A stretch of 64,000 bases of DNA, from contig NZ_AP024702.1 in assembly GCF_037076345.1 (NCBI RefSeq), positions 1,240,001 through 1,304,000 of the forward strand, given 5' to 3'. This document shows positions 16,478 to 57,658 of the stretch, piece after piece. The notes under the pieces were generated by a model. It made no database searches and was not told the DNA's origin. It worked only from the letters and a program-made list of their open reading frames with translations. The position numbers and the translations under genes are program-made. This DNA is from Haloferula helveola. GTDB taxonomy: Bacteria > Verrucomicrobiota > Verrucomicrobiia > Verrucomicrobiales > Akkermansiaceae. Within the stretch, counting starts at the first letter, position 1, and every line of letters starts with the position of its first letter.

Positions 16478-19400
16478 ATGCCCAAAACCCAGATCCCCTG
16501 CCTCCTCCTCGTCCTCACTGCCTCCGCTTCGGCCGCCGTCTTCGACTTCTCCCTGACCGGCAGCTCCAGCGGCAACAACAGCCAGGGTGGAGGGAGCGGC
16601 AACGTTCAGGTCGACGACGCGACCGTTGCCATCATCACGCCGGCCATCGATGGCATCCAGCTCACGCTCGAAGCGCTCTCCGGATCCGGCACGCCAACGA
16701 TCGGAGCCAACAGCCAGGGCGTGGGTGTCAGCACCGATGGTGAAAGCGATGCCAACAACACCCGGATCGAAGGCGACAAGACCGAGGCCTTCCGCATCAG
16801 CTTCGACAAGGCGGTGTCGCTCGACTCGATGCGCTTCGGCAACTTCACCAACACCGAGGTCGTCACGCTGACCTTCATCTCCGGCAGCAATCCCTTCACC
16901 TCCGGCACCTCGCTCACCATCAATGCCGACGGCAACCAGGGACCCGCCGATGACATCCTGCTCGCCAGCGACGCGATCGTGACCGGTGGCATCGGCGTGA
17001 TCCAGGCCGGCACGGTGATCGAGATGACGGTCTCCGCTGACTGCCTTCTCAACGAGTTCACCGTCTCCCCCGCCCTGCCCACCGCGATCGTCGGCTCGGT
17101 GCCAGCGCCCGTGATCACCGAAAACCCGAATCCGGGACCGAACCTAGGCAGCACGGTGATCGCCGACGGCAACCTCAAGGGCCAGAGCTTTTCGGTGGCC
17201 ACCGAGACCACGATCGAAAGCTTCGTCTTCGAGTGCGACGGCGTCACGACCCCCGGCAACTTCAGTGTCGAACTGTACCACGCGATGGATGATGTGCCGT
17301 GGCTGCTCAACCCGATCGCGACGGGCATCGCATCGCTTCCGGCCGGACTGGCCGATGGCGACCTGTTCGAGATCGAACTGCTTGACCCGGTCGTCGTCGA
17401 GCGCGGCTCGTACGTCGTCACGCTCGGTGGCGTCGGCGCGACCGAGTTCGCCATTCCGATCAGCAATGATCCGCTCTACCCGACCGGTGGCGGTGTGCGG
17501 AACAACAGTGCGGAGGGTTGGAGGCCGTTGATCAATGCCGACTCCGATCTCGTCTTCGCGGTCACCGGCACGCAGGCGGCCGACCCGTTTCCCGCCGCTC
17601 CGGCCGGCGCCCCGAACATCGTCTTCATCCTCGCCGACGACCTCGGCTGGACCGACCTGAACATCGGAGGAAACGGACCGAACGTGCTCGGCGGCACCGA
17701 CTACGGCAGTGGCTACTATGAAACTCCGAATTTGGCGCAGCTCGCCGCCGAAGGGCTTTCGTTCACGCACTGCTACGCCCAACCGAACTGCGCACCGACC
17801 CGTGCCGCGATCCTTTCCGGCCAGTATGCCTGCCGCGACGGCAATGGCGTTTATCACGTCGACGGGCTCAACCGCGGCCGCAACAGCCCGAACTTCGGGT
17901 CGGCCCCGCAGTTCACCGGTCCGTCGCAGAACGAGGACATCCCCGCCAGCCACTTGATCTCCGCCGAGGTCCTGCAGGCCGGCGGCTACGTCACCGCCCA
18001 CGTCGGGAAGTACCACGTCGGCAACCACGAAGGAGGCTCGGCGACGCTGCCCGAGAACCAGGGTTTCGACTTCAACTTCGGCGGCAAACAGAACGGCAAC
18101 CCGGGCAACTACTTCTCCAACAACGAGAGCTTCAACGGCGCGCTCGGCGACGGACTGCAGAGCTACGCGAAGAACTACACGAGCGGCTACATCACCGACA
18201 ACCTGGTATCGGTCGCCAACGGCAACGACCCGACCACGCTGCTGCCATCGACACCCGACAAATTCGTGCAGGATGGCATCGGCGACGCCGCCGTGGCCTT
18301 CCTCCGCGACCACGCCAAGGGCAACCTGTCGGCGAGGCCGTTCTACCTCCAGGTCCACAGCTACGCGGTCCACACGCCGATCGGCAACTCGCAGTCGCGA
18401 CCGGATCTGCTTTCGAAGTTCCAGGCGATCACCAGCACCGACCCTCGCCACGGCAGCGCTCCCTACGCCGCGATCCTCGAAAACCTCGACCAGTCGGTCG
18501 GCCGCATCCTTGCCTTCCTCGACGACAGCGGTCTCGCCTCGAACACCATCGTCGTTTTCACCTCCGACAACGGCGGCCACATCGGCCCGACCGACAACGA
18601 TCCGGTCCGCTTCCGCAAGGGCAGCTTCTACGAAGGCGGCCTGCGGGTTCCGCTGATCGTGCGCTGGCCGGATGGCGGCATCCCGGCCGGCGAGCAGACC
18701 GACGCGCTCGTCCACTCGGTCGACTTCTTCCCGACCTTCGTCGACGCCGCCCAGCTTTCCATGCCGACTCAGAACGCCATCGGCGATCCGGTGAACTACG
18801 ACGGCGCGTCATTCCTCTCGCACGCCGCCGATCCCGACACCGTCCCGGACGCGCGCGACACGGTCTTCTATCACTTCCCCGGCTACCTCGACGAGCGGGC
18901 CCGTCCGTGCGAGGTGGCGGTGAAGAAGATCGACGGCAAGGACTACAAGCTGATCTACACCTACGACACCGGTTACGTCGGCAACTCGAATCCAAACGGC
19001 AGTGACGAAGACGGCACCGAAGGGCTCGATGTGCTCACCGACAACTGGGAGCTGTACTGCCTCACCGACGACCTTTCGGAAACCACCGACCTGCTCGATG
19101 GCAGCTCTTACTCGAACTGGCTGCTCTACGGTGAAATCGCCGAAGGGATGGCGCAGGACATCGTTAACTGGCTCGGCCAAACCGACAGCGACTGGGCCCC
19201 CTCGCAGATCACCGACGGCGGAACACCGGTGCCTTTCCTGTCCGCCTCGACCTTGCCGGCGGTGAGCGTGCCGTTCGAGCAGACGTTCCGCATCACATCG
19301 TCGGTTCCGAATCTCGGGACCGATGAGATCAGTCTGACGTGGAACAGCGAGTCAGGCTTCTCCTACGACATCGAGGTGTCCGACGGACTGACCGGTTGGA

Positions 19401-19513
19401 GCACGCTCGCGACGGGGATCGCGGCCACCGGCACCAGCACTTCGGCCACGGTTCCCGACCCCGACATCGCCACCTCGGACCGGAGGTTCTACCGCGTGGT
19501 CCTGACGCCGTGA
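16478..19513 (+). CDS. Multi-domain secreted sulfatase (1011 aa)
   Basis: A signal peptide (MPKTQIPCLLLVLTASASA) is followed by about 350 residues of two beta-rich domains (residues about 20-200 and 205-365) absent from ordinary sulfatases. Then comes a full S1 sulfatase domain: FILADDLGW metal site near 385, signature CAPTRAAILSG with the formylglycine precursor Cys438, VFTSDNGGH and YEGGLRVPLIVRWP. The last about 60 residues form a beta module ending in RRFYRVV, shared with the 2974-residue protein. The Thr in CxPTR is an accepted variant of the usual Ser. The N-terminal domains may bind substrate or anchor the enzyme at the surface. Confidence 0.92.
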   Translation: MPKTQIPCLLLVLTASASAAVFDFSLTGSSSGNNSQGGGSGNVQVDDATVAIITPAIDGIQLTLEALSGSGTPTIGANSQGVGVSTDGESDANNTRIEGDKTEAFRISFDKAVSLDSMRFGNFTNTEVVTLTFISGSNPFTSGTSLTINADGNQGPADDILLASDAIVTGGIGVIQAGTVIEMTVSADCLLNEFTVSPALPTAIVGSVPAPVITENPNPGPNLGSTVIADGNLKGQSFSVATETTIESFVFECDGVTTPGNFSVELYHAMDDVPWLLNPIATGIASLPAGLADGDLFEIELLDPVVVERGSYVVTLGGVGATEFAIPISNDPLYPTGGGVRNNSAEGWRPLINADSDLVFAVTGTQAADPFPAAPAGAPNIVFILADDLGWTDLNIGGNGPNVLGGTDYGSGYYETPNLAQLAAEGLSFTHCYAQPNCAPTRAAILSGQYACRDGNGVYHVDGLNRGRNSPNFGSAPQFTGPSQNEDIPASHLISAEVLQAGGYVTAHVGKYHVGNHEGGSATLPENQGFDFNFGGKQNGNPGNYFSNNESFNGALGDGLQSYAKNYTSGYITDNLVSVANGNDPTTLLPSTPDKFVQDGIGDAAVAFLRDHAKGNLSARPFYLQVHSYAVHTPIGNSQSRPDLLSKFQAITSTDPRHGSAPYAAILENLDQSVGRILAFLDDSGLASNTIVVFTSDNGGHIGPTDNDPVRFRKGSFYEGGLRVPLIVRWPDGGIPAGEQTDALVHSVDFFPTFVDAAQLSMPTQNAIGDPVNYDGASFLSHAADPDTVPDARDTVFYHFPGYLDERARPCEVAVKKIDGKDYKLIYTYDTGYVGNSNPNGSDEDGTEGLDVLTDNWELYCLTDDLSETTDLLDGSSYSNWLLYGEIAEGMAQDIVNWLGQTDSDWAPSQITDGGTPVPFLSASTLPAVSVPFEQTFRITSSVPNLGTDEISLTWNSESGFSYDIEVSDGLTGWSTLATGIAATGTSTSATVPDPDIATSDRRFYRVVLTP

Positions 19514-20712: not shown

Positions 20713-23700
20713 ATGAAACACGCCCTTCCCTTCGCCGCGCTCCTCATCTCCAGCACTGTTTCCGGCTTCGCAGTACAGCCCGGAGTGAGCCCGCCTCCCG
20801 GCGAACTTGATCTCGAACTGCCACTGGGAAGTCGGCAGGTCGTGTCGGTCGACATCGAGAACCCTCAGGCGGCCTCCGCACTGTCATGGGAAGTCATCTT
20901 CCGGAACAGCCCGGCGGATCCGATCGAGCGACTCCTCTCGGACCTCGGGGAGACGCCGGAGCCACTGCTATCGGTGCTTCCGGACCGCTACGAGTTCCCA
21001 GGCGGCACCAGCGGTTACCAGTTGACCCTCAGCGGAGGATTCAGCGACACCGGCAACCGCATCTTCCTCAATGGCTCGCGGATCAACTACTCGGACTTCG
21101 TTCCGATCACCGTGACCGCGGGTGCCGGCAGCGCCCGCTACACGACCGCCAAACTACCCGGACTGTTCATCTTCTCCGGCGAGCTTTCCGGGGTCACCGA
21201 GTTCGCCATCGAAGGCCGCCCGGACCAAGGCTCCGCGGCGGAAGTCTCGGTCGACGATTTCACTGTCGAGGTCGCCGGAACCCCATGGAGGGCATTCGTC
21301 AAAAGAATCACGGACTCGGCATCTCCCTCGGCGTTGTTTCGACGTGCGTCGGTCCACCAGCTGATTCTGCTTCCCGACTCGCCGGGGCTGACGCGGACCT
21401 TCGACGCCGGGAACGAGTCCGACGGTCACATCATCTCCAACCTGCCGCCGTCGACGCCGCTCCACTACTTCTACTTTTCCCGGCCTGAGGGCTCCGCCTA
21501 CAACCGGTCCGTCCTCTCGGAATTCGCCGAGACCTACCTCCGTCGCCTCCTTCCCGGTCCGGAGTGGTGCCAACCAGCACCGACCGACGGGACGCTTCCG
21601 CCGCTCGGCTCCGGCCAGCTCGATTTCGTCATCGATGCGGGACTCTCCGGCATCGGGTCTCACGCCGCCGAGTTTGCGATCGTGGAAACCGGCACCGACC
21701 CCGACACCCTCCCGGCGACGGACTGGAAACCCTTCACCCTCGAGGTGAGCCCGCCGCCCTTCCGGCTCGGGTCCGAAAACCTCGAATTCTCCACACTCGA
21801 GGGCTACAACCCCGCAACCGGGGAACTCGAAGTGCTGCCAGCCGAGGGGGAAAGCAACCTCCCCTTGCTGAGCGTCACGGCGACGGCCGATTGGCTGACC
21901 ATGACTCCAACGGGCGACGGCCGGTGGCAGGTCGAAGCGCAGACCGACGGACTCGCCCCGGGCACGCATCTCGAGCACCTTGCCGTCAGCGACGGCACGT
22001 CCACCGCCAGCGTGCCGGTGTGGATCGAGGTCGAGTCTCGAAACATCATCTCGTTCCTCGCCGACCCGATCCGGCCCCGGCTTTACGCCCTCAGCAAGCT
22101 CGCGGAGCGCCCTGGGTTCCTCCTCGTTTTCGATCCCGCCACACAGTCCGAGACCACCGCGATCCCGCTGGGCCTCGAGCCGATCGACTTCGACCTGAAC
22201 GAAACCGCCAGCGAGTTGATCGTTCTCAACAACAGCGACCCGTCGATTTCGCGGGTCGACCTCGAGACCCTGTCGGTCACCCAAACGATTCCGCTCGGAG
22301 AATTCGTGACGTCCCCGGATTCCTTTGACGGGCGGATCGCCGACGGTCCCGGATCGATCCTCTACTACGTCGACGAGGACCGGCAGCCGAAGCTCCATGT
22401 CTTCGACCTCGCCTCCGGAACCGTGCTGCAGAAGTTTTCCGCGGATCTCGTTCCCCAGACGGACCCCGGCACCAGTTATGGATTCGGTGACATCGCGGTC
22501 GACTCCGGCCGGAGTCGCCTGTTCGCGTGGACGCGTCAGGATACGACCGGCTCGTCCACGGGATCGCACGCCGTGAGCTTCGACATCGCCCCGGACGGCA
22601 CGCTTTCCAATTTCACGCGATCGGTGATCCGCAACCGAGGGACCTTCCGCCGGGATCCCGACAACACCCCAACCCTCTTGAGCGAGGATGGCAGAACCCT
22701 TGTGATCAAGGACAGCCGGCTTGATCCGGATGCACTGGATGCCGAGCTCGCCCGCTTTCCCGCTGTGGCCTACGCCCTGACCCGGGGCGGCGAGCTCGCG
22801 GGACTTTCCAACCGCATTTACAACCTCCGGGAGGATACCACCACGACCCTCACCGGATACGCACCCAACCAGTTCACTCCGGACTACGCATGGTTCACCT
22901 CGATCGGAAGCGACGGCGAGGTGGTTTGGACCGATCTCCACAGCGTGGTCACTCCGGCCGAACTCGGAATGCGCTTCGAGCCGGCCGATGACGGAGGAGC
23001 AGTCCTTCCCGGCGAACTCCGATGGCCACCCGCGCGGGAGGTGCGGAGCTACGAGGTCTATGTCGGCACGGATCCCGACGCGGTCGCGGCAGCAGTTTCC
23101 GGATCGCCGGAATACCTCGGCAGCTTCAGCGGAAATTCGGCACCTTTTCCCCCGGGCCTCGTCGCCGGTACCGTTTACTACTGGAAGGTCATCCCCGTGG
23201 GTGGCAGCGATCCGGACTTTGATCCGGTCCGTTCCTTCACGGTGCTGCCGGTCAGCCTGCCGCGGAGGGACCTGATCGCCGGTTCTGTCGCAGGTGCCTC
23301 CAGACGGCTCGAGACCTTTCCGATCGACTGCGACGCGTCGACCGGATGGGAGTTGGGCTCGACCGTACCATGGATCTCCGCGGAACCGGCATCGGGCGCC
23401 GGCAGTGCGACTCCAACCGTCGTTCTCGACGCCAGCGCGCTCGACACCGGCGTGCATCGCGGCGACCTGCTGCTGACCGTGAATGGCGTGACCACCGTCA
23501 TCCCGGTGGAGTTGACCGTCTTCGGAATGCAGGTGCGGGAGATGGACGTCGTGCCGGGCGAAGACACGATCTGGGTCTACTCGCAGGGAACTGACGAACT
23601 CGGTTTTCTGGTCGCCTACAACACCTCGTCATCAGGCTTCGAAACAGTCATCCCGACCGGTCTGGCGGCCAGTCCGTTGGCGGTGCACGCCCGGGAGGAC

Positions 23701-26700
23701 CGGATCTACGTCGCGCAAACGAACCCCGGCATTATCTACGGCTTCGACCGTAGCACGCTCGAGCAGGTCTTCACCTACCGGTTCGAGCCACGTCAGCCGC
23801 CCACCCAGACCTCGCACGGAATCCGGAGTCTCGCTCCTGGACCCGACGGACGGATCGTTGTCGAAATTCTCGAACCGAACCGGTCCGCACTGCTTCTGGT
23901 CGACACAACGAACGGTGATCTCCTCGATGAATTCGAACTCGGAGACATCCCCGCCGGCAGCGGTGTCAGCAGCGCCGACGGAAACTTCTACTTCCACGCC
24001 GACGCCAACTTCTCGAACGCCGACATCTCGAAATTCGACCTCGCGGGCGACCGCTTCACCGAGCTGGCCAGTTACCGCTTCGCCGGCTACAGCAGCAGTG
24101 GCGGATTCCCGGTGCGGCTCAGCGCCGACGGGACGCGGATCGCGTGGAACGGCGGAATCCTCGACACCGATCTCAATCTCCTCAACGTGGTGCCCCAGCA
24201 GCTCCATGCCATCAGCGGCAACGGGGCATTCGTCGCCTCCAACCGCGACCTTTACAATGCCGCCAACGGGCTCGTCGTCGGACGGCTTCCGGCCTTCAGC
24301 AACCGCAGGATTTTCGACGGCTCCGGCGAGGTGCTCTATACCTTCGACAGCCAGGTCTGGGTGACCCCGCTCTCCGAATTCGCGGCGCTCCCGGACCGTG
24401 ATGTGGTTCCCACCGTATCCGACGGATCCACGATCCGGATCAACGACGTCGAACTTGCGTGGGCGCCCGAAGCCACCGCCGCTTCCTACAAGGTCTTCTT
24501 CGGCACGGATCGCGACCTCGTGGCGGCGGCGGATTCGGACAGCTCCGAGTTCCTCGGAACGATGACCTCATCCAGGTGGACGGGAGACCTGCCCGACATC
24601 GGGATCGGTGGGACTTACTACTGGCGGATCGACATGCAGGGAGTCGACGGCACCCGGACCGGCTCCGTGTGGGAATTCAGCGTCGCCCCGATCGAAACGA
24701 TCCCGAGCCAATTCACCATTCCGACACTGACCGGCCGTCCGATCGAGCGACAAATCATGAGTTTCCGGTCGGCGGGATCCACCGACTGGGAAGCATCCAC
24801 CTCGGACGCCTGGATCCGACTGGAAAGCACCTCCGGCACGGTCTCTCAGGAACTTGCGTTCGAAATCGACACGACCGGGCTTCCGGTCGGCACCCGGATC
24901 GGCAGCATCGCCATCACGTCGGGCGGTGAAACCATCGCGGTTCCCGTCGAGGTCGATGTCGTCCAGCTGGACATCGAACGCCTCGCCATCGATCCGAGCC
25001 GGGCACGGGTTTACGGACTCAACGACCAACTGCCGAGCAACGGCTGGAACCACCTGCTGGCAATCGATCCCGAATCTGCAGAGGTACTTGATCTGATCCG
25101 GATCGGCCGCAACGTCACCGATCTGGTCATTGATCCGGTGACCGATCGCCTGATCGCATCCAATGACGGCTACCCGGTGACCCGGGTGGTGGATCTCGCG
25201 AGTTTCGCGGAGCTTGCCCCTCTCGAACTTGGCGACGATGTCTTCACGCTAGAGATCGACCCGGACCGCCGGCTTCTCATCGCCGAAACCGAGCGCAGCC
25301 AGGTCAGCGTGCGGGCCCTCGATCTCGACACACTGGCGCAGGTGACCTCGTTCAGCGGTTCGGCCGGCGTGACCCGCATCGACCCGGCACGGAACGTCTA
25401 CTACCGCGCCGAGAACTTCTCGGGCGCTTCCCGTCTCAAGAAGTATGATCTCAATCTCTCCCCTCCGGTTCAGATCGGTGAGGTGACCCATAGCGCGTCG
25501 CTCAACGAAATCCTGATGACCAACGACGGAAGCCTGCTCGTTTGCCGGGACACGGTCTACAACCCGGATCTGGAGATCGTGAACGCGCTCCCCGCGGAAC
25601 CCGTCTGCCTGTCACCGTCCGGTCAACTCGCGGTCAGCACCTCCTCGATCTACTGGCTCGACGATGGCACTTTCGTTGACGACCTGCCGTTCATCGCCGA
25701 TGAGGCCACCTTCACCGCCGACGGCGGGCGACTGATTCTCTTCAACCGGACCGACCGCCGTCTGGAATCGATCCCGCTCGACCCGATCATCCAACTTCCG
25801 GGTCCCACCCCGCGCGACGGCCGGTGGCTCGGCGCCAGCCCGGAAACTCTGAGCTGGCAGCCGGTCGATGGCGCGAATGCCTACACCGTCACGCTCCGCA
25901 GCCCGTCCCGGGGAACCCTTGTATTCAGTGGACTGACCGTGCCGCAGCTCGGAATTCCGTTTCAGTTCATCCGCGGCGAAATCGTCGACTGGTCGGTCCG
26001 CGCCGAGTTCTCCGATCGTGGACCGGTCGACCTGCCTGAGTATCAGTTCGGCATCCGCATCCCGCAGCACTCCACGCTCGAAGGTGCCATTCCCTACGAT
26101 CCGGGATTCGGACCCGGTCACCTGCTGGCGCGATCGGGTTCCAACTCCTATGTGCTGCGGACCTTCGACCATGACTCGGGCGAGTCCGTGGTAATCGAGG
26201 ACAACCCGGTCGTACCACCCGCAGGCATTCCCACCTCCGGCCAGCGCACCCTCATCGACCGGTTCCGTTGCTACCACACGCTTCCCGGCCAGACCGCGGA
26301 AGACAGCTCCACGGGCGTGGTCTTTTCTTTCGACGCCAGCCTCTACAACCGCGCCCACACCTCGCTGCTGCCGAGGCCCGACGGAATCAATCGTGACCTC
26401 GGTACCGGCCTCGCGGTTTCCGGAGGCCTGCTGCTGACGGGAGGCAACGCTTCGAACTCCAACCGCTCCCGGGTGATCGCCTACACCACTCAGCCCGCGA
26501 TGGTCCAAACCCAAGCGCTTGTACCTTCGGAGGAACGCGAATTCGATCGTTTCGGCTCGGCGATCGCCCTTCACGGCAACGCAGCGGCCATCACTTCCGG
26601 CGGCCGGTTCAGCTTCAGCAACCCGGTCCTCCCGGCAATCTTCATGTTCGACCGCGATCCCGTCTCGGGCCGGTGGCAGGAGACGCAGAAGCTCGAAGTC

Positions 26701-29637
26701 CCCGACGCCGGCAGCCGGGACTTCATCCGCCAACTCGCCATGAACGACCGCTTCCTTGTCGTAGTGAACTCCAACCGCGACGAGGTGCATATTTTCGAGC
26801 GAGCCGACGGCGGAGCATGGGCATTCCAGACAACGTTCTCGGCCGCCAACCAGCGGGGAGCCACCGCGAGCTTCGGGTCGGCGATCGCGCTCGCTGGAAA
26901 CCGCCTCTTCGTCGGCGACGCTGAAGCAAGAGTCGACGGCGAATCAGGAGCGGTCTTCACCTTCATCTTTGACGGTTCGGCATGGTCACCCGGCGTGCCC
27001 GTCCTGCCACCCGATCCTTCAGTCCGCCGCAGGAACTTCGGCCTCTCCCTCGCCGCACGCGACCGATGGCTGTTCGTCGGGGCCGGCATCGCCAACACCG
27101 GAGCCTTCACCGACACCACGGGACATCTGTTCGACCTCGACCCGGCACCCAATCACACGCCGTATTTCCAACCCGCCGCGGTGACGCAGGTTGTCGCGGG
27201 CAGCTTTCTCAATCTCGAAGTCTCCGCCGGGGACGCCGATGGCACGGACGGGCTCGTGATGGGTGCGACCCAGCTCCCGGACTGGATCGAGTTCACCGAT
27301 CTCGGAAATGGAACGGGCACCTTGACGGGCACCGCGAATGCCCCGGCGGGCAGCCAGCACGAATTGCAGTTGGTGGTCACCGATCCGAGCGGCGCGAGGT
27401 CGTACGACACGTTCCGGTTGACGGTCGTCGAGAAGGCGAATCGGCCGATCATTACCCAAGGGCCGGACGACCTTGCTCTAGAAGACGGACAGGACATCGT
27501 TCTACGGGCGGAGGCGGCTGGCATCGAACCGCTCGCATGGCAGTGGTTCCACAACAGCCAACCGATCCAAGGAGCGACCCGGCCGACGCTCGAGATCGCC
27601 GAGGCCGGCACCGGGAACCAAGGCGCCTACCACGTGGAAGTGAGCAACGCCGCAGGGGGCGCGACCTCTCGCACCAGCACCGTCACCGTCGGACCTGCCG
27701 ACCGGTTCAACGGTCCATGGGCTGCCACCGGCAACTCGATGCGCCGCTCCGGATTCCATCCGGCACGACTCAAGCGGCACACCTTCGTGCCGGTCTGGTC
27801 GCGACGGCTCCCGGCGAACTCGCTCACCCAAGCCGCCATCGCCGATGGCAGGGTCGTGGTCAGCGGCATCGGCACTCCCGGGTCGCTCGTCTTCGCTCTC
27901 GACTTCAACAGCGGTGAAGTCCTGTGGTCGACGCCTTTCGATTCGACCCGCTCCGCGAATCCTCCATCCATCCACCGCGACCGTATCTATTATCAGGAGA
28001 GTGACATCTCCAACAGCCGGTTGTGGTCCCTCGCCGCCGACACCGGTTCCGTCATCTGGGAAGGGAACTGGATTACCCAGTTCGAGTCCTACGACTCGCC
28101 GGCCGTCAGCGATTCAGGAGTCTGGATTGGCGGCGGCTATGGCGACGGGCTATATGGCTTCGATCTCGACGGGACATCCCGATTCTACGAAGTCCTGCCG
28201 CAGGAGTCCGACAGGTGGACACCGATCCTCAGCGGCGACCGGTTGTTCAGCTGGGTCGAGGGCACCCTGCGCGAACACGATCCGGAAACCGGCAAACTGC
28301 TCTGGAGTTGCATCGGCACCGGCGGGAAGAACATTTTCTCTGGAACCATTCGCGGCGACCGAGCCTTCGTCTCAACCGGGGACGGGCTTTCCTGCGTCGA
28401 CCTGATCGGGCAGAAACGTCTTTGGACCGTGCCCGGGTTGCCCTACTGCAATCCGGCCGTCTTCGGCAGCCTGATCTATGCGGTCGCAGGGAGCACCGTG
28501 CGTTCTTTCAGCACCGAAGACGGCACTGAGCAGCCGGAGTTCGTGCTGCCGTCCGAGGACCCCATCGCCATCGCCCAGCCTGTGCTGCTTCATGGTCATC
28601 TTATCGTTTCCACCCAGACTCGGACTTACATCTTCGACCGGGAAACCATCGAGCTTCTCCAGGTCATCGAGGTGGGAGGGAATCTCAGCTACTCGGAAGG
28701 CAAGCTGATCATCGTTGATGCCGCCGGCGAGGTTCACGCATGGTTCGCCAATGGCGCACCGGAATTTTCGCCGGACCTTCCGGATCAGGTGAACAGCGGC
28801 GTCGCTGCCCCGCCTTTCGCTCTCGCTGTCGGCGCGTTCACCGGAGATCCCGATCCCGCCGACGCCTTGGTATGGGCGATCGTGGACGTGACCCGGCCGG
28901 AAATCTTCAACACCCTTGCCATCGACCCGGGCAGTGGCGACCTGACCGTGATCTACAACCCTTGGGAATCGGGTTCGTCCGATGTGACCGTTTCGGCCAG
29001 CGACCCGGTCGGCAACGTGACTGAAAGCACCATCACTTTCACCGTTCCTCCACACCCGCTCCCCGCACTCGAAATCGAGGAATCGATGATCTTGAACCGG
29101 CAGACGGGACTCTACGAGCACACGATCACGGTGACCAACCCCGCACTGCGGGAGATCGCCGGATTCGATCTCACCATCACGGGGCTCCCCGTGGGAGTCG
29201 AGGTTCACAACGCTTCCGGCGAAGCTGAAGGCGCGTGGTCCGTCCAGCACCGGCAGCCGCTGGCACCTGGAGCTTCGATCACCCTGATTCTTGAATACTA
29301 CGCTCCGGTCCGCGGAACGGTTCTTGAACCCCAAGTCGCTGCCTCAATCGTCACCTTACCGGAACAGGATCCAGCCGCCGAAGTGCCGGGCTTGGCTGTC
29401 GACCGCTGCGAGTTGGTCGACGACGGCTTGCTGATCGAATTCATCTCCGTGCCCGGAGCACTCTACGAGATTCAGTACTCTGACGACTTCACGCTGTGGA
29501 AGACCTCGCCCACCCGCATCCGGGCGGCTGGCAACCGCGTCCAATGGATCGACAGGGGCCCTCCCAGAACCGACTCCTCACCCGGCGACAAGTCCTCGCG
29601 ATTCTACCGTGTCCGCGAACTCCCCGAAACCGAATGA
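20713..29637 (+). CDS. Giant secreted multi-domain protein (2974 aa): beta-propellers, Ig, PQQ propeller
   Basis: A signal peptide (MKHALPFAALLISSTVSGFA) is followed by a modular body. A unit of beta-propeller (YVTN-like repeats) plus fibronectin-like strand (VYVGTDPDAVAAA..., VFFGTDRDLVAAA...) plus BACON-like domain (WISAEPASGAG, WIRLESTSGTV) recurs, with propellers at residues about 440-750, 940-1230 and 1420-1690. Next are an FG-GAP-like region (FGSAIALHGN, FGSAIALAGN; about 1790-2140), a cadherin-like domain (2146-2240), an Ig domain (2243-2330, LAWQWFHNSQPIQGATR), a PQQ-type propeller (2334-2680), another cadherin-like domain and a C-terminal beta tail ending RFYRVRELPETE. No catalytic motif is visible; it is probably a surface adhesin. 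The stop codon overlaps the start of the barrel gene (ATGA), implying coupled translation. Confidence 0.88.
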   Translation: MKHALPFAALLISSTVSGFAVQPGVSPPPGELDLELPLGSRQVVSVDIENPQAASALSWEVIFRNSPADPIERLLSDLGETPEPLLSVLPDRYEFPGGTSGYQLTLSGGFSDTGNRIFLNGSRINYSDFVPITVTAGAGSARYTTAKLPGLFIFSGELSGVTEFAIEGRPDQGSAAEVSVDDFTVEVAGTPWRAFVKRITDSASPSALFRRASVHQLILLPDSPGLTRTFDAGNESDGHIISNLPPSTPLHYFYFSRPEGSAYNRSVLSEFAETYLRRLLPGPEWCQPAPTDGTLPPLGSGQLDFVIDAGLSGIGSHAAEFAIVETGTDPDTLPATDWKPFTLEVSPPPFRLGSENLEFSTLEGYNPATGELEVLPAEGESNLPLLSVTATADWLTMTPTGDGRWQVEAQTDGLAPGTHLEHLAVSDGTSTASVPVWIEVESRNIISFLADPIRPRLYALSKLAERPGFLLVFDPATQSETTAIPLGLEPIDFDLNETASELIVLNNSDPSISRVDLETLSVTQTIPLGEFVTSPDSFDGRIADGPGSILYYVDEDRQPKLHVFDLASGTVLQKFSADLVPQTDPGTSYGFGDIAVDSGRSRLFAWTRQDTTGSSTGSHAVSFDIAPDGTLSNFTRSVIRNRGTFRRDPDNTPTLLSEDGRTLVIKDSRLDPDALDAELARFPAVAYALTRGGELAGLSNRIYNLREDTTTTLTGYAPNQFTPDYAWFTSIGSDGEVVWTDLHSVVTPAELGMRFEPADDGGAVLPGELRWPPAREVRSYEVYVGTDPDAVAAAVSGSPEYLGSFSGNSAPFPPGLVAGTVYYWKVIPVGGSDPDFDPVRSFTVLPVSLPRRDLIAGSVAGASRRLETFPIDCDASTGWELGSTVPWISAEPASGAGSATPTVVLDASALDTGVHRGDLLLTVNGVTTVIPVELTVFGMQVREMDVVPGEDTIWVYSQGTDELGFLVAYNTSSSGFETVIPTGLAASPLAVHAREDRIYVAQTNPGIIYGFDRSTLEQVFTYRFEPRQPPTQTSHGIRSLAPGPDGRIVVEILEPNRSALLLVDTTNGDLLDEFELGDIPAGSGVSSADGNFYFHADANFSNADISKFDLAGDRFTELASYRFAGYSSSGGFPVRLSADGTRIAWNGGILDTDLNLLNVVPQQLHAISGNGAFVASNRDLYNAANGLVVGRLPAFSNRRIFDGSGEVLYTFDSQVWVTPLSEFAALPDRDVVPTVSDGSTIRINDVELAWAPEATAASYKVFFGTDRDLVAAADSDSSEFLGTMTSSRWTGDLPDIGIGGTYYWRIDMQGVDGTRTGSVWEFSVAPIETIPSQFTIPTLTGRPIERQIMSFRSAGSTDWEASTSDAWIRLESTSGTVSQELAFEIDTTGLPVGTRIGSIAITSGGETIAVPVEVDVVQLDIERLAIDPSRARVYGLNDQLPSNGWNHLLAIDPESAEVLDLIRIGRNVTDLVIDPVTDRLIASNDGYPVTRVVDLASFAELAPLELGDDVFTLEIDPDRRLLIAETERSQVSVRALDLDTLAQVTSFSGSAGVTRIDPARNVYYRAENFSGASRLKKYDLNLSPPVQIGEVTHSASLNEILMTNDGSLLVCRDTVYNPDLEIVNALPAEPVCLSPSGQLAVSTSSIYWLDDGTFVDDLPFIADEATFTADGGRLILFNRTDRRLESIPLDPIIQLPGPTPRDGRWLGASPETLSWQPVDGANAYTVTLRSPSRGTLVFSGLTVPQLGIPFQFIRGEIVDWSVRAEFSDRGPVDLPEYQFGIRIPQHSTLEGAIPYDPGFGPGHLLARSGSNSYVLRTFDHDSGESVVIEDNPVVPPAGIPTSGQRTLIDRFRCYHTLPGQTAEDSSTGVVFSFDASLYNRAHTSLLPRPDGINRDLGTGLAVSGGLLLTGGNASNSNRSRVIAYTTQPAMVQTQALVPSEEREFDRFGSAIALHGNAAAITSGGRFSFSNPVLPAIFMFDRDPVSGRWQETQKLEVPDAGSRDFIRQLAMNDRFLVVVNSNRDEVHIFERADGGAWAFQTTFSAANQRGATASFGSAIALAGNRLFVGDAEARVDGESGAVFTFIFDGSAWSPGVPVLPPDPSVRRRNFGLSLAARDRWLFVGAGIANTGAFTDTTGHLFDLDPAPNHTPYFQPAAVTQVVAGSFLNLEVSAGDADGTDGLVMGATQLPDWIEFTDLGNGTGTLTGTANAPAGSQHELQLVVTDPSGARSYDTFRLTVVEKANRPIITQGPDDLALEDGQDIVLRAEAAGIEPLAWQWFHNSQPIQGATRPTLEIAEAGTGNQGAYHVEVSNAAGGATSRTSTVTVGPADRFNGPWAATGNSMRRSGFHPARLKRHTFVPVWSRRLPANSLTQAAIADGRVVVSGIGTPGSLVFALDFNSGEVLWSTPFDSTRSANPPSIHRDRIYYQESDISNSRLWSLAADTGSVIWEGNWITQFESYDSPAVSDSGVWIGGGYGDGLYGFDLDGTSRFYEVLPQESDRWTPILSGDRLFSWVEGTLREHDPETGKLLWSCIGTGGKNIFSGTIRGDRAFVSTGDGLSCVDLIGQKRLWTVPGLPYCNPAVFGSLIYAVAGSTVRSFSTEDGTEQPEFVLPSEDPIAIAQPVLLHGHLIVSTQTRTYIFDRETIELLQVIEVGGNLSYSEGKLIIVDAAGEVHAWFANGAPEFSPDLPDQVNSGVAAPPFALAVGAFTGDPDPADALVWAIVDVTRPEIFNTLAIDPGSGDLTVIYNPWESGSSDVTVSASDPVGNVTESTITFTVPPHPLPALEIEESMILNRQTGLYEHTITVTNPALREIAGFDLTITGLPVGVEVHNASGEAEGAWSVQHRQPLAPGASITLILEYYAPVRGTVLEPQVAASIVTLPEQDPAAEVPGLAVDRCELVDDGLLIEFISVPGALYEIQYSDDFTLWKTSPTRIRAAGNRVQWIDRGPPRTDSSPGDKSSRFYRVRELPETE

Positions 29638-30800
29638 AATCTTCCCTCAGGCATGGCCCGGGCACTTTGGTGCTGTCGTCGTTGCTGATTCTCCCGGCCT
29701 TCGCCGGCAGCGCGAAGTCTCCCGTCGAATCATCCGGCGATTGGGAATGGTCGATCTCCACCGGCCCGGCGATCCGCAACGTCGGCAAGCTCAAGGTCAA
29801 CGCGGGCTACCGCAGCAGCATCGGCATCATTCCGTCCTTTGTCGGAAATGACTCGCTGACGGTTCCTCCAATCGGTGACGAGGGCGCTTACGCCGATCGA
29901 TTCTACAATGACGGCTATGTCCGACAGGATGCCGGAACGGGCATCGACGGCTCCACTTGGTTCTGGGGCTATGACAATGCCTCGCAGGTGCAGGGCGACC
30001 AGTTGGGCTATTCCGCCACGGGCGCCCAGAGCATCCGGCGCGATGCCTACAACGTGCCCTCTTCCGGCCCCTTCAGCCGGGACAGCCTCCGGGGTTTCGC
30101 CCCGCACATCCAAGTCGACGCGCGCAGCCCCTACCAGGTGGCCGGCTTTCGTTTCGGCCTGAGTGCGGGCTTCGATTTCACGCAGGTCGACCACGCCTCG
30201 ACCTTCACGAATTTCACCGGCACCCAGTTTCGGGACGACTACCGGTTGGACTATGTCGACCGGTTCGAACTCGGCGGAGTCATTCCTCCTTCGCCCGGCT
30301 ATGCCGGAAGTCTCGCCGGTCCGGGACCTCTGATTCCCAACCAACCGGGATCACGCTCGCTCACTCCGGTGCTCCTCTTCACGGACACCGGATCGATTTC
30401 CAACCGCGTCTGGAACTCGATCGACATCGACGTCTTCAGCCTGACCTTCGGTCCGACCTTCCAGCGCTCCTTCGGCCCGGTCGACCTGAGCCTGCAAGCC
30501 GGTCTGATTCTCAACGTGTATCACTGGCAGGCACGCCAGGCGGAGCGGCTGTCGGCGACCAACCGGTCGGGCACCACCGTGGTGGCCCGATGGGCCGAGG
30601 GTGACTCGGGGACAAAGTTCCGGCCGGGAATCTACGCCCAGGCGGAGATCTCTTACGACGTCGGCAACAACCTCGCGGTCGGCACCTACCTGCGGCTGGA
30701 CACGGCGAGCGAGTTCAGGGCTCAGGCAGGCCCGAGCATCTACCGGATCGACCCCACGGGATTCATGACGGGGTTCTCGGTAACCTACACCTTCCCCTGA
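29634..30800 (+). CDS. Outer-membrane beta-barrel protein, coupled to the giant protein
   Basis: The protein has 388 residues. The ATG at 29634 overlaps the upstream stop (ATGA) and opens a signal peptide (MKSSLRHGPGTLVLSSLLILPAFAGSA), so it is preferred over an upstream in-frame start at 29496. Alternating hydrophobic/polar strands rich in Gly and Tyr (FRFGLSAGFDFTQVDH, VDLSLQAGLILNVYHW, NNLAVGTYLRLDTASEF) run to the C-terminus SVTYTFP, with an aromatic near the end as in outer-membrane barrels. The family is not recognised. The coupling suggests it anchors or surface-exposes the 2974-residue protein, but this is inference. Confidence 0.75.
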   Translation: MKSSLRHGPGTLVLSSLLILPAFAGSAKSPVESSGDWEWSISTGPAIRNVGKLKVNAGYRSSIGIIPSFVGNDSLTVPPIGDEGAYADRFYNDGYVRQDAGTGIDGSTWFWGYDNASQVQGDQLGYSATGAQSIRRDAYNVPSSGPFSRDSLRGFAPHIQVDARSPYQVAGFRFGLSAGFDFTQVDHASTFTNFTGTQFRDDYRLDYVDRFELGGVIPPSPGYAGSLAGPGPLIPNQPGSRSLTPVLLFTDTGSISNRVWNSIDIDVFSLTFGPTFQRSFGPVDLSLQAGLILNVYHWQARQAERLSATNRSGTTVVARWAEGDSGTKFRPGIYAQAEISYDVGNNLAVGTYLRLDTASEFRAQAGPSIYRIDPTGFMTGFSVTYTFP

Positions 30801-36774: not shown

Positions 36775-38340
36775 TCACTGCTTCAGATTGATCCAACCGA
36801 TCCGAGGTCCTTTCGGAACCATCGCACGGTAGCGCTTCAGGATCGTCTCCAACTCCGCGACCACCTCCGGGTGATCCGCGATGACATTCGTGCTCTGAGC
36901 CGGGTCCTCCTCAAGGTTGTAGAGCTGGGCCATCGGCGCGTCGGCACGATACTTGCCGTCGACGATGTCGGAGTTCGGCCTGCCGGCGAAAGCCAGACCC
37001 GGCGGTCCGGCGAGCAGATGCTCGCCCGGCTTCCTACCTTGGAACCCGCCCGACCCGCGCTGCGGGATGTAGACCCATTGCCGGTGGCGGATGCCCAGGT
37101 GCTTCGGGCTGTTCGGGCTGATCACGAGCGTTTCACGCAGCGGCTTCGGGCTGGCCCCGGTCAGATTCTCCAGTTGGCCGATGCTGTCGGGCCCCTCGCC
37201 CTCCTTCAGCTTGCGGCCGGTGATCTCGGCAAAGGTCGCCAGCAGGTCGATCTGGCTGATCAGGGTGTCCGATGTGGTCCCGGCGGGAACCTTTCCCGGC
37301 CACCTGACGACCATCGGCACCCGGTGGCCGCCTTCCCACGCACCAAACTTGAATCCCAGCAGGTCGCCATTGATCCTGTGCCCCGCCTTCCACGCCTTCT
37401 GCGCCGTGACGTTGAGCATGCCGCCGTTGTCGCTGGTGAAAACGACCAGCGTGTTGTCGGTCGCCCCGCGCGCCTCGACCGCGGCAAGCACCTCGCCGAC
37501 GATCCAGTCCAATTCATGAACGAAGTCGCCGTATCGGCCGCACTCGCTGGTACCGACGAACCGGTCGGCCGGCGTGAACGGGTGATGGATGTTGGTGGTC
37601 GCGAGATAGAGGAAAAACGGGCGCTCGTCGGACCGTCCCTTCAGCCAATCGACCGCGCGTTCCTTCAGCGTGGTTCCGATCCGCTTGTCGACGTAGAGCT
37701 TGTGCGCCGCCTCGCCACCACCGATCGCACCGTAGCCGCCCTTCTCCGGCATCCGCTTGGCGACCGACGGCTTGCCGTATTGGAAAGGGTCCTCGGGGTC
37801 CGCTCCGAAAACCCGGTGGTTCTCGACGTACACGAACGGCGGTCCGCTGTTCACCGAGGGGATGCCGAAGTAGGTATCGAAGCCCAGCTCGAGCGGCCCC
37901 GGCTTCAGTTCGCCATTCCAGTCCGGCTCCTTCTCCCCGAACCCGATGTGCCACTTGCCGAAGCACGCGGTGTCGTAGCCCGCCTCCTTCAGCAATGACG
38001 CCAAGGTCATGCTGCCAACCTCGACCGTCAGCGGCTCACGAAGCGGAACCGGCCCCCACAGGTTCTTGCGCAGCGGGTAGCTGCCGGTCAGCAGTCCGTA
38101 GCGCGACGGCGAACACACTGCCGATGGCGAATGCGCATCCGTGAATCGCCGGCCCTCCGTCGCGAGCCGGTCGATGTTCGGCGTCTTGAGTTTGGTCGCG
38201 CCATAGCAACCGAGATCTCCGTAGCCGAGGTCATCCGCATTGATCAGGACGATGTTGGGCTTCTCGGCAGCGAAGGCTGAACCCAGCGACAGGATGATCG
38301 AACCGAGGATCGCGGTAACCATGCGTGGCGGGCGACTCAT
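36775..38340 (-). CDS. Secreted S1-family sulfatase
   Basis: The protein has 521 residues from the ATG at 38340 (38322 is an alternative; an upstream frame to 38463 lies in a repeat). A signal peptide (MVTAILGSIILSLGSAFA) is followed by LINADDLGYGDLGCYG, the signature CSPSRYGLLTG with formylglycine-precursor Cys76, ACFGKWHIG, VFTSDNGGM and WEGGHRVPMVVRWPG. The C-terminal YNLEEDPAQSTNVIADHPEV block is typical. It is a periplasmic or extracellular sulfate-ester hydrolase with unknown glycan target. It sits in tandem with the sulfatase at 38485, separated by a family A repeat. Confidence 0.94.
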   Translation of the reverse strand: MSRPPRMVTAILGSIILSLGSAFAAEKPNIVLINADDLGYGDLGCYGATKLKTPNIDRLATEGRRFTDAHSPSAVCSPSRYGLLTGSYPLRKNLWGPVPLREPLTVEVGSMTLASLLKEAGYDTACFGKWHIGFGEKEPDWNGELKPGPLELGFDTYFGIPSVNSGPPFVYVENHRVFGADPEDPFQYGKPSVAKRMPEKGGYGAIGGGEAAHKLYVDKRIGTTLKERAVDWLKGRSDERPFFLYLATTNIHHPFTPADRFVGTSECGRYGDFVHELDWIVGEVLAAVEARGATDNTLVVFTSDNGGMLNVTAQKAWKAGHRINGDLLGFKFGAWEGGHRVPMVVRWPGKVPAGTTSDTLISQIDLLATFAEITGRKLKEGEGPDSIGQLENLTGASPKPLRETLVISPNSPKHLGIRHRQWVYIPQRGSGGFQGRKPGEHLLAGPPGLAFAGRPNSDIVDGKYRADAPMAQLYNLEEDPAQSTNVIADHPEVVAELETILKRYRAMVPKGPRIGWINLKQ

Positions 38341-38373
38341 ACCGACAGTTACAAATCGTCTGCCGCGATTGGG

Positions 38374-38460
38374 TTCACCGCGAACACGCCAAGGACGCAA
38401 AGCCTCGACCCACGAACTTTGGATTTCCTCTTCTTTGCGATCTTGGCGTCTTTGCGGTTC
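38374..38460. repeat. Long inverted intergenic repeat (family A), copy 2
   Basis: CACCGCGAACACGCCAAGGA ... CTTGGCGTCTTTGCGGTTC form an imperfect inverted repeat in the gap between two sulfatase genes. It is the same family as 32757-32841. Confidence 0.75.
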
Positions 38461-38484
38461 CATTCTCTAGCCTTGGAAATCGAT

Positions 38485-39873
38485 TCATTCGCCTCCCGCC
38501 TTCTCAGCCTTCGGATAGTCCCCGCCCTGGTCGGAGTGCTTGCAACTCGCACGCCAGTCGTCCAGCGCTTCGGTCATCGCCTTGACCTTCTCCGGATGCT
38601 CGGCGGCGATGTCGGTCTTCTCCGACGGATCCTTGCCAAGATCATACAGCTCCCACTTCTTCCCGTCGTTGGTGGTGATCAGTTTGAGGTCTCCGTCCAT
38701 CCACACCCGCTGGCGACTCGACTGGAATCCGATCGGTTCCGATCGCGGCGCATCGTTGCCCTCAAACACGGAGAGCAGCGAGATGCCGTCGATCGGCCGG
38801 TCCTCGGGCACCGGCAAGTCGACGATGTCCAACAGCGTCGGCAGATAGTCGCTGGTCACGGCCGTCGACTTCGTGCGACTGCCCGCCTCGATCTTCCCCG
38901 GCCACTCGATCACCGCCGGGACACGCACCCCGCCTTCCCACAAGGTCGTCTTGAATCCGCGGAACGGCCCCGGGGATCCGACATGCTCGGCATCCCCCTG
39001 CCGCGCCGGACCATTGTCGGAACAGAAGGTCACCAGCGTGTTGTCGGCCACGCCGAGATCCCGCAACGTCTTCCTCAGTCTCCCGATCTGCTCGTCCATC
39101 GCGGTCACACAGGCGTAGTAGTGCTGGTTCGGCACCGGGTGCTCGGCGTAGCGCTTGCGATACTCCGGACCGCCGACCACCGGACTGTGCGGCGCGTGGA
39201 ACCAGATGACCGTGAAGAACGGCTTCTCCGCCTTCACCGCCTTCTCGATGAACGGCACCGCGCGGTCCATCACGATCCGGGCGCTGTCACCCTTCTGCGG
39301 CTCGGTGACGTTCTCGCCGTTGTGCCAGAACAAACGGCGGGTATCGTACTCGCCGCCTCCGTGTTTGTTCTTCGGGTCGTAGGGATCCCAGGTCGCGACC
39401 GAATACTCGGTGGAAAACCATTGGTCGAAGCCCGCCATGCCGGGAGTCATGTGATTCTTCTCCGGTGCCCGCCCTTTCCCTTTTCCGGAGAACTCGGCGG
39501 AGAGCGTGCCGAGGTGCCACTTGCCGAAGTGCCCTGTCGCGTAGCCGAGCTTGCCCAGCAACTCGGGCAGCGTGATCTCCGGCGCCCTCAGGTGACCCTT
39601 GTTGGCGAAATAGACCCCGTAGCGGAAAGGATGCCGCCCGGTCAGGCACGAGCCGCGCGTCGGCGAACACACCGGCGCCGCCGAATAGAACCGCTCGAAC
39701 ACCATCCCGCTTTCCGCCATCGCGTCGAGCGACGGTGTCTCGATGATCTTCCCGCCATTGAAACCGACATCGCCCCAGCCGAGGTCGTCCGCCATCAGCA
39801 GCACGACATTCGGCCGCTCGGCCGCGGCGGCAAGGTGAAGGCAGGCGAGATAAAAGATCGTCAGCAATCGCAT
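38485..39873 (-). CDS. Secreted S1-family sulfatase
   Basis: The protein has 462 residues with a short signal peptide (MRLLTIFYLACLHLAAAA). Blocks seen are LLMADDLGWGDVGFNG, the signature CSPTRGSCLTG (formylglycine-precursor Cys69), GHFGKWHLG, TFCSDNGPA and LWEGGVRVPAVIEWPG. The C-terminal YDLGKDPSEKTDIAAEHPEK is usual for the family. It is exported and acts on sulfated substrates, probably polysaccharides. It lies just upstream in transcription order of the sulfatase at 36775, so they may share a transcript despite the hairpin between them. Confidence 0.94.
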   Translation of the reverse strand: MRLLTIFYLACLHLAAAAERPNVVLLMADDLGWGDVGFNGGKIIETPSLDAMAESGMVFERFYSAAPVCSPTRGSCLTGRHPFRYGVYFANKGHLRAPEITLPELLGKLGYATGHFGKWHLGTLSAEFSGKGKGRAPEKNHMTPGMAGFDQWFSTEYSVATWDPYDPKNKHGGGEYDTRRLFWHNGENVTEPQKGDSARIVMDRAVPFIEKAVKAEKPFFTVIWFHAPHSPVVGGPEYRKRYAEHPVPNQHYYACVTAMDEQIGRLRKTLRDLGVADNTLVTFCSDNGPARQGDAEHVGSPGPFRGFKTTLWEGGVRVPAVIEWPGKIEAGSRTKSTAVTSDYLPTLLDIVDLPVPEDRPIDGISLLSVFEGNDAPRSEPIGFQSSRQRVWMDGDLKLITTNDGKKWELYDLGKDPSEKTDIAAEHPEKVKAMTEALDDWRASCKHSDQGGDYPKAEKAGGE

Positions 39874-56344: not shown

Positions 56345-57658
56345 TCACTTCATCGGCCAAGCCGGGTCGTCGACCCGCGCCTTCGCCATCAGCTTGACCG
56401 CCTTCTTCACGAGGTCCGGCTTGTCCCCGGCGAGGTCGTTCTTTTCACCGGGATCCTTGGCGAGATCGTAGAGTTCGACCTTGGCCTTCGATCCGTTCTT
56501 CACCGCCTTCCAGTCGCCGAAGCGGATTGCCTGGATGGCATTCGGCTTCCGGCCTTCGTGGAGCTCCCAGTAGAAGTAGTCGCGCTCAGGTGCATCCCCG
56601 CCCTCGAGAAACGAGACCAGCGAGTGGCCGTCGGTTTCGAAACCGTCGGGAAGCTTGCCGCCCGCCAGCTCGACCGCCGTCGGCAGGAAGTCCCAGAACG
56701 CCCACGGCTCGTCGGTGTCCCGGCCCGCCGGAACCTTGCCCGGCCACCACGCCACGGCGGCCTGACGCAGCGCGCCCTCATACATCCCGCGTTTGAAGCC
56801 GCGCAGCTTGCCGTCCATCGTCTGGTTGAAGCGCTTGCCGATGTCCGACGACGGAGCGAAGGACGAACCGTTATCACCGGCCGTGATCACCAGCGTGTTG
56901 TCGGCGATCTTCAGCTCCTCGAGCAACTCGAGGACTTCACCGAGATCATGGTCGAGGCGCGTCACCATCGCGGCGTAGTTCTTCTCCTTCTCGCTCCAGT
57001 CCTTGTCCTTGTAGATCCCTTGGTCGTCGATCTCGTAGCGGCCGTGCGGCAGGGTCATCGCGTAGAAGAGGAAGAACGGTCCCTCCTTGTTGTCGCGGAT
57101 GAAATCGAGGGCGGCCTTCTGGACGAGGTCCTGCGCATAGGTCTTGCCATCGAGCGGCACGCGCTTGTCGTTGTCGTAGATGTACTTCGGAAAATAGCTG
57201 TGGGCGTGACGCTGGCAGTTGTATCCGAAGAACCGGTCGAAGCCCTTCTTGAACGGGCTGCCGGTGGTGTCGAACATCCCCATCCCCCACTTGCCGGTGC
57301 AGGCGGTCGCGTAGCCTTCCTTCTTCAGTAGTTGCGCGACCGTCACCGTCTCGGCCGGCAGAGGCTTTTGGCCTTCCGGCTGGATCTCGCGATTGGCGCG
57401 GATCGGACAATGCCCCATGTGCAGGCCGGTCATCAGAGAGCTGCGGGATGGCGCGCAGACACTCGTGCCGGAGTAGGCCTGCTGGTAGAGCGTCCCTTCC
57501 TTCGCCATCCGGTCGAGGGTCGGCGTCAGGATCAGCTCCTGCCCATAGGCGCCGACGTCCCCCTGCGCGAGGTCGTCGGAGAGCATGAAAATGATGTTCG
57601 GCTTGGCGGTGGCGAGAACGGGCAGGCTGAGGAGCAAAAGCAACGGACGCATGACCAC
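56345..57658 (-). CDS. Secreted S1-family sulfatase
   Basis: The protein has 437 residues with a signal peptide ([18 protein letters not shown]). Blocks are [16 protein letters not shown], the signature [11 protein letters not shown] with formylglycine-precursor Cys68, [21 protein letters not shown] (the usual SDNG is altered to AGDNG) and [15 protein letters not shown]. Its short size and the divergent metal-site strands mark a different subfamily from the other four sulfatases. It is divergent from the esterase at 57765 with 106 bp between, so the two may be co-regulated. Confidence 0.92.

Follow-up and report, generated by a model that had tools for sequence, protein, structure and literature searches.

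The very large, putatively secreted protein encoded in a 64,000-nucleotide stretch of Haloferula helveola DNA (the window; GCF_037076345.1, contig NZ_AP024702.1, positions 1,240,001 to 1,304,000 of the forward strand) ends in a domain that, in many species of the phylum Verrucomicrobiota, is usually encoded right beside the same kind of small predicted outer-membrane barrel. This suggests a way of fixing quite different proteins onto the cell surface, in which the barrel would serve as a dedicated receptor or anchor for the C-terminal domain (CTD) of its cargo. Literature searches for such a pair in Verrucomicrobiota listed no paper whose title or opening abstract lines describe it, although most subscription journals lay outside their reach. 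How large secreted proteins of this phylum reach and hold on to the cell surface is, as far as we know, largely open; a portable tag with a genetically linked receptor would let one predict which proteins are displayed, would offer a directly testable anchoring mechanism, and would suggest that the cargo-plus-dedicated-barrel arrangement of Bacteroidota arose a second time from different parts.

Features of the cargo-barrel locus, in window positions.
Position	Strand	Feature	Evidence
20713..29637	+	Cargo: 2974-aa secreted multidomain protein (signal-peptide-like start, residues ~1-20, by reading)	Open reading frame, translation and Pfam scan
21745..26097	+	Three BACON-propeller-FN-like units (residues ~345-850, 850-1340, 1340-1795)	Whole units align at Z 25-34 against shuffles; BACON_2 in Pfam; boundaries set by hand
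26110..28782	+	FG-GAP propeller, He_PIG-like, Ig and PQQ propeller region (residues ~1800-2690)	Pfam scan
29071..29634	+	Conserved two-part CTD: Ig-like part plus 'NRxQWIDxGPPkTxSHPSxxxxRFYRV' part; proposed recognition tag	Part of the cargo matched beside the paralogous barrel in the own genome; CTD alignment; profile hits; model pLDDT 91.9
29634..30800	+	Cognate outer-membrane barrel, 388 aa, read as 8 membrane strands with long conserved extramembrane segments; proposed CTD receptor/anchor	Alignment, family scans, structure model, fold comparison and conservation
29706..29708	+	Codon of Gly25, predicted first residue of the mature barrel	Conserved in 42 of 43 aligned barrels

The sequence-only reading, which reported a giant propeller protein overlapping a barrel gene, was correct in what it observed: the barrel frame starts with an ATG that lies inside the stop codon of the cargo (ATGA). 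Translational coupling of the two genes is inferred from this overlap only. Elsewhere the estimated gaps run from about -28 to about +380 nt and the gene order is sometimes reversed, so tight overlap is not the conserved feature. Pfam finds PQQ_2, BACON_2, FG-GAP_2, I-set and, just under its cut-off, He_PIG in the cargo. The triplication is also real. It was not seen by self-BLAST, but a shuffle test aligns the three ~450-500-residue units to each other, while the FG-GAP and PQQ regions do not align to propeller 1 (Z 1.7 and 1.3). The repeat order reads as BACON-propeller-FN rather than propeller-FN-BACON as first proposed; the third FN-like domain is not detectably similar to the other two (Z 0.8, 2.4), and BACON 1 against 2 is weak (Z 2.5).

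What the cargoes share is not the propellers but the ~185-residue CTD, which the earlier reading did not see. In the host genome there are two barrels and two strong CTDs (E 3.5e-84 and 2.1e-80; the other nine matches have E 1.3e-4 or worse), and each pair is adjacent. In 195 genomes of the family (Akkermansiaceae), 57 of 64 barrels have a CTD gene (E<=1e-30) within 6.5 kb. Five of the other seven sit at contig ends (judged for genome G057 from match coordinates), and two lie inside contigs without an adjacent CTD (genome:contig G125:C63, and G020:C188 on a 5.6-kb contig). Conversely, 58 of 66 strong CTDs (E<=1e-50) lie within 6.5 kb of a barrel. Of the eight others, three end at or within 200 nt of a contig end, one (locus L207) runs into a weak barrel-start match (E 6.6e-6) at a contig end, and four have no barrel nearby but lie in genomes with a barrel elsewhere. 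Six less similar CTDs (E 1e-28 to 1e-47; L209-L214) and that of genome G374 (L215) have no barrel beside them. At the genome level, both parts occur in 50 genomes, the CTD only in 2, the barrel only in 3, and neither in 140 (Fisher p 2.8e-40, not corrected for shared ancestry).

From one set of matches, 60 places were read, leaving out the window itself, G040:C207, G057:C58, G020:C455 and extra fragments of genes already covered. From the profile search behind the barrel count, nine rows were left out to give 64: five fragments of counted genes and four short or weak matches (G066:C176, G051:C3, G157:C27, G033:C44). The CTD profile was built from CTDs found beside barrels, so diverged or unpaired CTDs are under-detected, and the family and phylum searches scored only the best 5-15 candidates per genome, making their counts lower bounds.

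The possibility that the genes are linked only by shared regulation or descent, with products that do not touch, must be considered, since related genomes inherit gene order, raw counts overstate independence, and a few pairs are broken up. However, linkage is kept when the order is rearranged: of 79 pairs, 74 are CTD before barrel, 4 are barrel before CTD, and 1 is on opposite strands. Barrel and CTD distances correlate (Mantel r 0.80 over 68 non-redundant pairs; best of 5000 permutations 0.13), although this may reflect species history. Two or three diverged pairs in one genome are each adjacent, and in genomes with several pairs the true assignment fits best in 8 of 11, against about 4.5 expected by chance, and fails in 3. 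Linkage also holds in several other families of the phylum, where 13 of the 14 CTD matches at E<=1e-28 lie beside a barrel. Mere linkage is thus considered unlikely, but many distant barrel relatives show no CTD partner: 27 of 40 loci read outside the family, mostly the strongest matches, have no CTD by this profile, and L171, L172 and L174-L177 have no such protein among the two ORFs listed on each side.

Neither part matches a specific curated family. The window's barrel matches no Pfam family at E<=1, but 13 of 43 aligned homologues match the generic OMP_b-brl model at E<=0.1 (best 1.2e-5). Its structure model (pLDDT 91.4) is a barrel, best matched by the 8-stranded OmpA, OmpW and NspA (VIA Z 16-19, 134-171 residues aligned at 2.0-2.8 A), with FadL and autotransporter barrels near Z 7. 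OmpA gives Z 19.0 at 2.7 A over 170 residues, against the best FadL at Z 7.1 and 4.3 A over 148. The count of eight strands is a reading of the strand list and these matches; Foldseek rows had query-normalised TM-scores of 0.27 or less and were not used. The CTD fold search hit common Ig/CBM-like folds over residues ~37-141 (Z up to 9.9 over 99 residues), barely touching its second part. Profile searches of solved-structure sequences gave no match for the barrel and eight weak ones (E 0.2-0.38) for the CTD.

The earlier interpretation, that the barrel exports or anchors the giant protein in a possible undescribed display system, is only partly supported. It would have failed had barrel homologues never neighboured such proteins, and within the family the outcome is in its favor. 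Display is well supported by the pairing, on genomic and model evidence alone, but export by the barrel is not. Constant pairing of one cargo with one barrel is what two-partner secretion (type Vb), with its large exoprotein and outer-membrane barrel encoded side by side, also shows. However, an 8-stranded barrel is an unlikely export pore, no POTRA or Omp85 match is found in Pfam (at E<=1 for the window's barrel and E<=0.1 for the 43 aligned barrels), the barrel is small, and the shared cargo element is C-terminal, so the export-pore reading is rejected as improbable. The arrangement also differs from a classical autotransporter, since cargo and barrel are separate ORFs in the window.

The best explanation, held with moderate confidence, is that the two genes are a matched cargo-anchor pair. 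In this view, the cargo crosses the inner membrane by its signal peptide, reaches the outside by a separate outer-membrane export machine not identified here, and is held on the surface by its CTD, which docks on the long conserved outer segments of the barrel. The analysis itself establishes the conserved gene pair, the modular tag and a confident model that reads as an 8-stranded barrel, whereas passage by the signal peptide, surface location (and any need of the barrel for it) and the export route are inferred, and direct binding of the CTD to the barrel is inferred from linkage, co-divergence and conservation. The conservation argument is modest: 28 of the 45 most conserved barrel residues lie in extramembrane segments, but these hold about twice as many residues as the membrane strands, and their mean conservation is slightly lower (0.428 against 0.448).

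The tag and the barrel are the constant parts, while the cargo domains vary. The ten partners scanned are varied, from ice-binding-like to HYR and fibronectin-type proteins. This variety speaks against a substrate-capture or uptake complex, in which the cargo binds a polymer and the barrel admits products, as does the little lumen of an 8-stranded barrel. The five sulfatase genes in the window make polymer use nearby plausible, but such a complex remains the least likely of the alternatives.

The closest known system is that of type B CTD proteins with PorP/SprF-like barrels in the type IX secretion of Bacteroidota. There too, a large surface protein has a conserved CTD, the cognate barrel gene commonly lies directly downstream, and some orphan cargoes have no linked barrel (PMC9143113, PMC12618676). 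In Flavobacterium johnsoniae, two type B cargoes rely on their cognate SprF-like protein for secretion, and three orphan cargoes share one orphan shuttle (PMC12618676). The barrel described here could likewise be a shuttle that takes the cargo from an unrecognised translocon and is needed for secretion as well as anchoring; G125, for example, has one lone barrel and two lone CTDs. This remains an unlikely reading, as the barrel fold differs: PorP-like barrels are 14-stranded and of the FadL family (PMC9143113). The phylum is also different. None of the 43 barrels matches PorP_SprF in Pfam (which holds PF11751) or NCBIfam at E<=0.1, and one touches another T9SS barrel model, PorT/SprT, at a chance-level E of 0.064. 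None of 41 CTDs matches a T9SS C-terminal model among the families listed at E<=0.1 in NCBIfam, which holds such models, or Pfam. Searches for SprA in the host genome and for PorP_SprF in 16 genomes also gave no match, but neither search gave a match in any control, so neither shows absence. Another C-terminal signal on surface proteins in the same phylum is PEP-CTERM/exosortase sorting (PMC4960237). The CTD, in contrast, is a predicted folded unit without a C-terminal transmembrane stretch by reading, and no PEP-CTERM model is among the cargo's hits.

The predicted N-terminal glycine of the mature barrel hints at a peptidoglycan tether. In Coxiella, the barrel BbpA is tethered to peptidoglycan by LD-transpeptidases, and its muropeptide is written GM-AEJGGPDYVPAPS (PMC11841132), which we read as attachment through an N-terminal Gly, the mature N-terminal residue that would accept meso-diaminopimelate; as far as consulted, that work does not describe BbpA as a cargo anchor. 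Here, the Gly at the aligned predicted cleavage site is followed by Asp/Glu in 30 of the 42 barrels that have it; in the window's barrel the predicted mature N-terminus reads Gly-Ser-Ala-Lys. As background, 24 of 168 other putative secreted ORFs have Gly there by a crude scan, which recovers the Gly in only 20 of 40 barrels. LD-transpeptidases are encoded in the genome, with 12 YkuD matches, and at least one is found in each of 16 genomes searched; 6 of 14 controls match. The family is not specific to tethering. A more speculative, rather doubtful possibility is a surface-display system spread through Verrucomicrobiota and unrelated by sequence and fold to the type IX system, in which the barrel would be tied to peptidoglycan by its N-terminal glycine on the inside and would hold varied cargo by the folded tag on the outside, so that one small protein bridges cell wall, outer membrane and surface. 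In distant genomes (L181, L184, L195), a suspected passenger-barrel fusion turned out to be a long Ala/Lys/Glu-rich repeat extension before the barrel.

The window lies in a genome assembled as one contig of 5.68 Mb, in which a very large ORF with a signal-peptide-like start is followed by a barrel reading frame that overlaps it by ATGA. The observation made in the sequence-only reading, a giant propeller protein whose gene overlaps that of an outer-membrane barrel, is confirmed. In one scan, from which records near the own genome may have been left out, the closest named barrel relatives are in Haloferula rosea (59%), Luteolibacter marinus (56%), a MAG labelled Akkermansia muciniphila (56%), and other Verrucomicrobiota. 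The pair is flanked by genes for a uracil phosphoribosyltransferase upstream and a HAMP-adenylate/guanylate cyclase downstream.

Coordinates of the pair, of other features of the window, and of three distant loci from other genomes
Location	Coordinates	Strand	Feature
Window	20713-29637		Cargo ORF, 2974 residues, signal-peptide-like start
Window	29634-30800		Barrel reading frame from ATG, 388 residues
Window	29706-29708		Predicted first mature residue of the barrel (Gly)
Window	11366-12868		Sulfatase gene
Window	16478-19513		Sulfatase gene
Window	36775-38463		Sulfatase gene
Window	38485-39873		Sulfatase gene
Window	56345-57658		Sulfatase gene
Window	58804-63861	-	1685-aa protein with Big_9, cadherin-like, Ig, PA14, and PATR matches
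Window	1236-7205	-	1989-aa ORF, no Pfam match at E<=1e-5
Locus L181	2923-7971		Repeat stretch followed by barrel in one ORF
Locus L184	2921-8530		Repeat stretch followed by barrel in one ORF
Locus L195	10127-12625		Repeat stretch followed by barrel in one ORF

In the cargo, Pfam recognizes PQQ, BACON, FG-GAP, I-set, and He_PIG-like domains. The triplication described in the sequence-only reading is real, since whole units align to each other at Z 25-34. When the own genome was searched with the whole cargo, the search returned the cargo itself and two further places: residues 2756-2967 (40%) matched directly beside a paralogous barrel, and residues 1186-1323 gave a weak match elsewhere. This means that the C-terminal ~185 residues (the C-terminal domain, CTD), and not the propellers, are shared with the second pair. 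The barrel has one paralogue in the genome (38%), and a barrel profile likewise finds two barrels. A CTD profile built from 41 sequences finds two strong places, at E 3.5e-84 and 2.1e-80, each of them adjacent to a barrel. Of nine further matches (E 1.3e-4 to 6.1e-3), one is an internal stretch of the second pair's cargo, and eight lie elsewhere, where there is no barrel. Distant relatives of the tag thus exist without a barrel, but the full tag occurs in this genome only with one.

The pairing recurs in the family. Of 60 barrel loci that were retrieved (numbered with L), 52 have an ORF ending in the W[IVL]DxGxP-type motif within 700 nt, and L079, with a variant motif, and L083, with a distance of 872 nt and a split barrel, bring the number to 54. 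Of the six others, four barrels lie at contig ends (L049, L056, L061, and L062), and two (L040 and L046) have no partner beside them. The barrel gene is also split in L051, where there are stops inside it, while in L083 it is in two pieces with undetermined bases nearby; in both cases, the CTD ORF beside it is open. In L052, one barrel gene stands between two CTD genes. Profile searches of the same 195 genomes give 64 barrels, 57 of them with a CTD (E<=1e-30) within 6.5 kb, and 66 CTDs at E<=1e-50, 58 of them that near to a barrel. Of the other eight CTDs, three (L201, L202, and L203) end at or within 200 nt of a contig end, and one (L207) runs into a weak barrel-start match (E 6.6e-6) at a contig end. 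The remaining four (L204, L205, L206, and L208) have no barrel nearby, though their genomes have one elsewhere. Less similar CTDs (E 1e-28 to 1e-47) in L209-L214 stand alone as well.

Beyond the family, among 387 genomes of the phylum, the barrel profile matches in at least 66 (E<=1e-8) and the CTD profile in at least 27 (E<=1e-10), both lower bounds since few candidates per genome were scored. Of 40 outside-family barrel loci that were read, 13 have an adjacent CTD (L166, L170, L179, L186-L189, L193, L194, L196, L197, L199, and L200) and 27 do not. Seen from the other side, 13 of 14 outside-family CTD matches at E<=1e-28 lie beside a barrel, and one, at locus L215 of genome G374, does not. 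Of 25 loci from a collection of named genomes, several of which are the same genomes as those already counted, 17 have the pair. Among the loci without a recognized CTD, some have another large ORF next door with an FYxV- or YYxI-like end (L161, L165, and L167), and others have only unrelated genes nearby (L171, L172, and L174-L177). In a distant group (L181, L184, and L195), with no recognized CTD partner, the barrel follows, in one ORF, a long Ala/Lys/Glu-rich repeat stretch of several hundred to over a thousand residues.

The linkage does not look like just a matter of shared descent. Of 79 pairs, 74 are in the order CTD then barrel, 4 are in the order barrel then CTD, and 1 is on opposite strands. 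The distances between barrels and those between CTDs correlate with a Mantel r of 0.80 over 68 non-redundant pairs (the maximum of 5000 permutations was 0.13), which alone could reflect species history. Within genomes that have several diverged pairs, the true assignment is the best one in 8 of 11 (7 of 8 with two pairs, 1 of 3 with three), compared to about 4.5 expected by chance. In the genomes G019 and G108, a barrel close to the window's type (57% and 56%) has a much more distant CTD (31% and 25%) in reversed order, which looks like partner exchange.

The cargoes themselves are diverse. Ten partners were scanned, and their domains include HYR with DUF7933/DUF11, an FGE-sulfatase-like domain with cadherin-like repeats, FG-GAP with Calx-beta or DUF11, fibronectin with reelin-like, an ice-binding-like domain, Calx-beta alone, and DUF11 with CARDB, or there was no hit at all; DUF11 recurs in five of the ten. 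The partner ORFs run from 263 codons (truncated by a contig end) to 4090, with a median of 1659, so not every cargo is giant.

The AlphaFold2 model of the barrel, made with 43 sequences, has a pLDDT of 91.4, and that of the CTD has a pLDDT of 91.9. Structural comparison of the barrel model with VIA-align puts OmpA, OmpW, and NspA in front (Z 16-19, with 134-171 residues aligned at 2.0-2.8 A), with FadL and autotransporter barrels near Z 7. The rest of the chain forms long strand extensions and loops in the model. With segment borders set by hand, these hold 28 of the 45 most conserved residues, but they also hold about twice as many residues as the membrane strands, and mean conservation is slightly lower outside.

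The sequence-only reading proposed that the barrel exports or anchors the large protein at the cell surface, and this interpretation is only partly supported. A barrel this narrow is, by inference, unlikely to pass a folded giant, so anchoring is preferred, and export by the barrel is not supported. What the analysis shows is the pair and its genetics; display is supported by these, without physical proof, and anchoring remains an inference. In Bacteroidota, PorP and SprF were found bound to type B CTD proteins, and the authors suggest that they anchor them (PMC9143113), while two type B substrates were shown to rely on their cognate shuttle for secretion (PMC12618676). The pair described here would work like PorP/SprF plus type B CTD but fails the tests of membership in that family that could be applied. 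All 16 pair-bearing genomes searched have matches to the GspD secretin model, over its curated cut-off in 7 and not in the own genome, so a type II route is possible but unproven.

The predicted first mature residue of the barrel is Gly in 42 of 43 aligned sequences and is followed by Asp or Glu in 30 of those 42, which may mean a peptidoglycan tether. Gly is likewise read as the N-terminal residue of the tethered peptide of Coxiella BbpA (PMC11841132), and the own genome has twelve YkuD-type LD-transpeptidase matches. A background scan, which was crude, gave Gly in 24 of 168 other ORFs. In the barrels of L059, L060, L063, L065-L070, L072, L073, and L075-L078, SAKGxx- or SAKDxx-type repeats lie between the signal peptide and the barrel, and a short SAKSP follows the signal peptide in the window's barrel.
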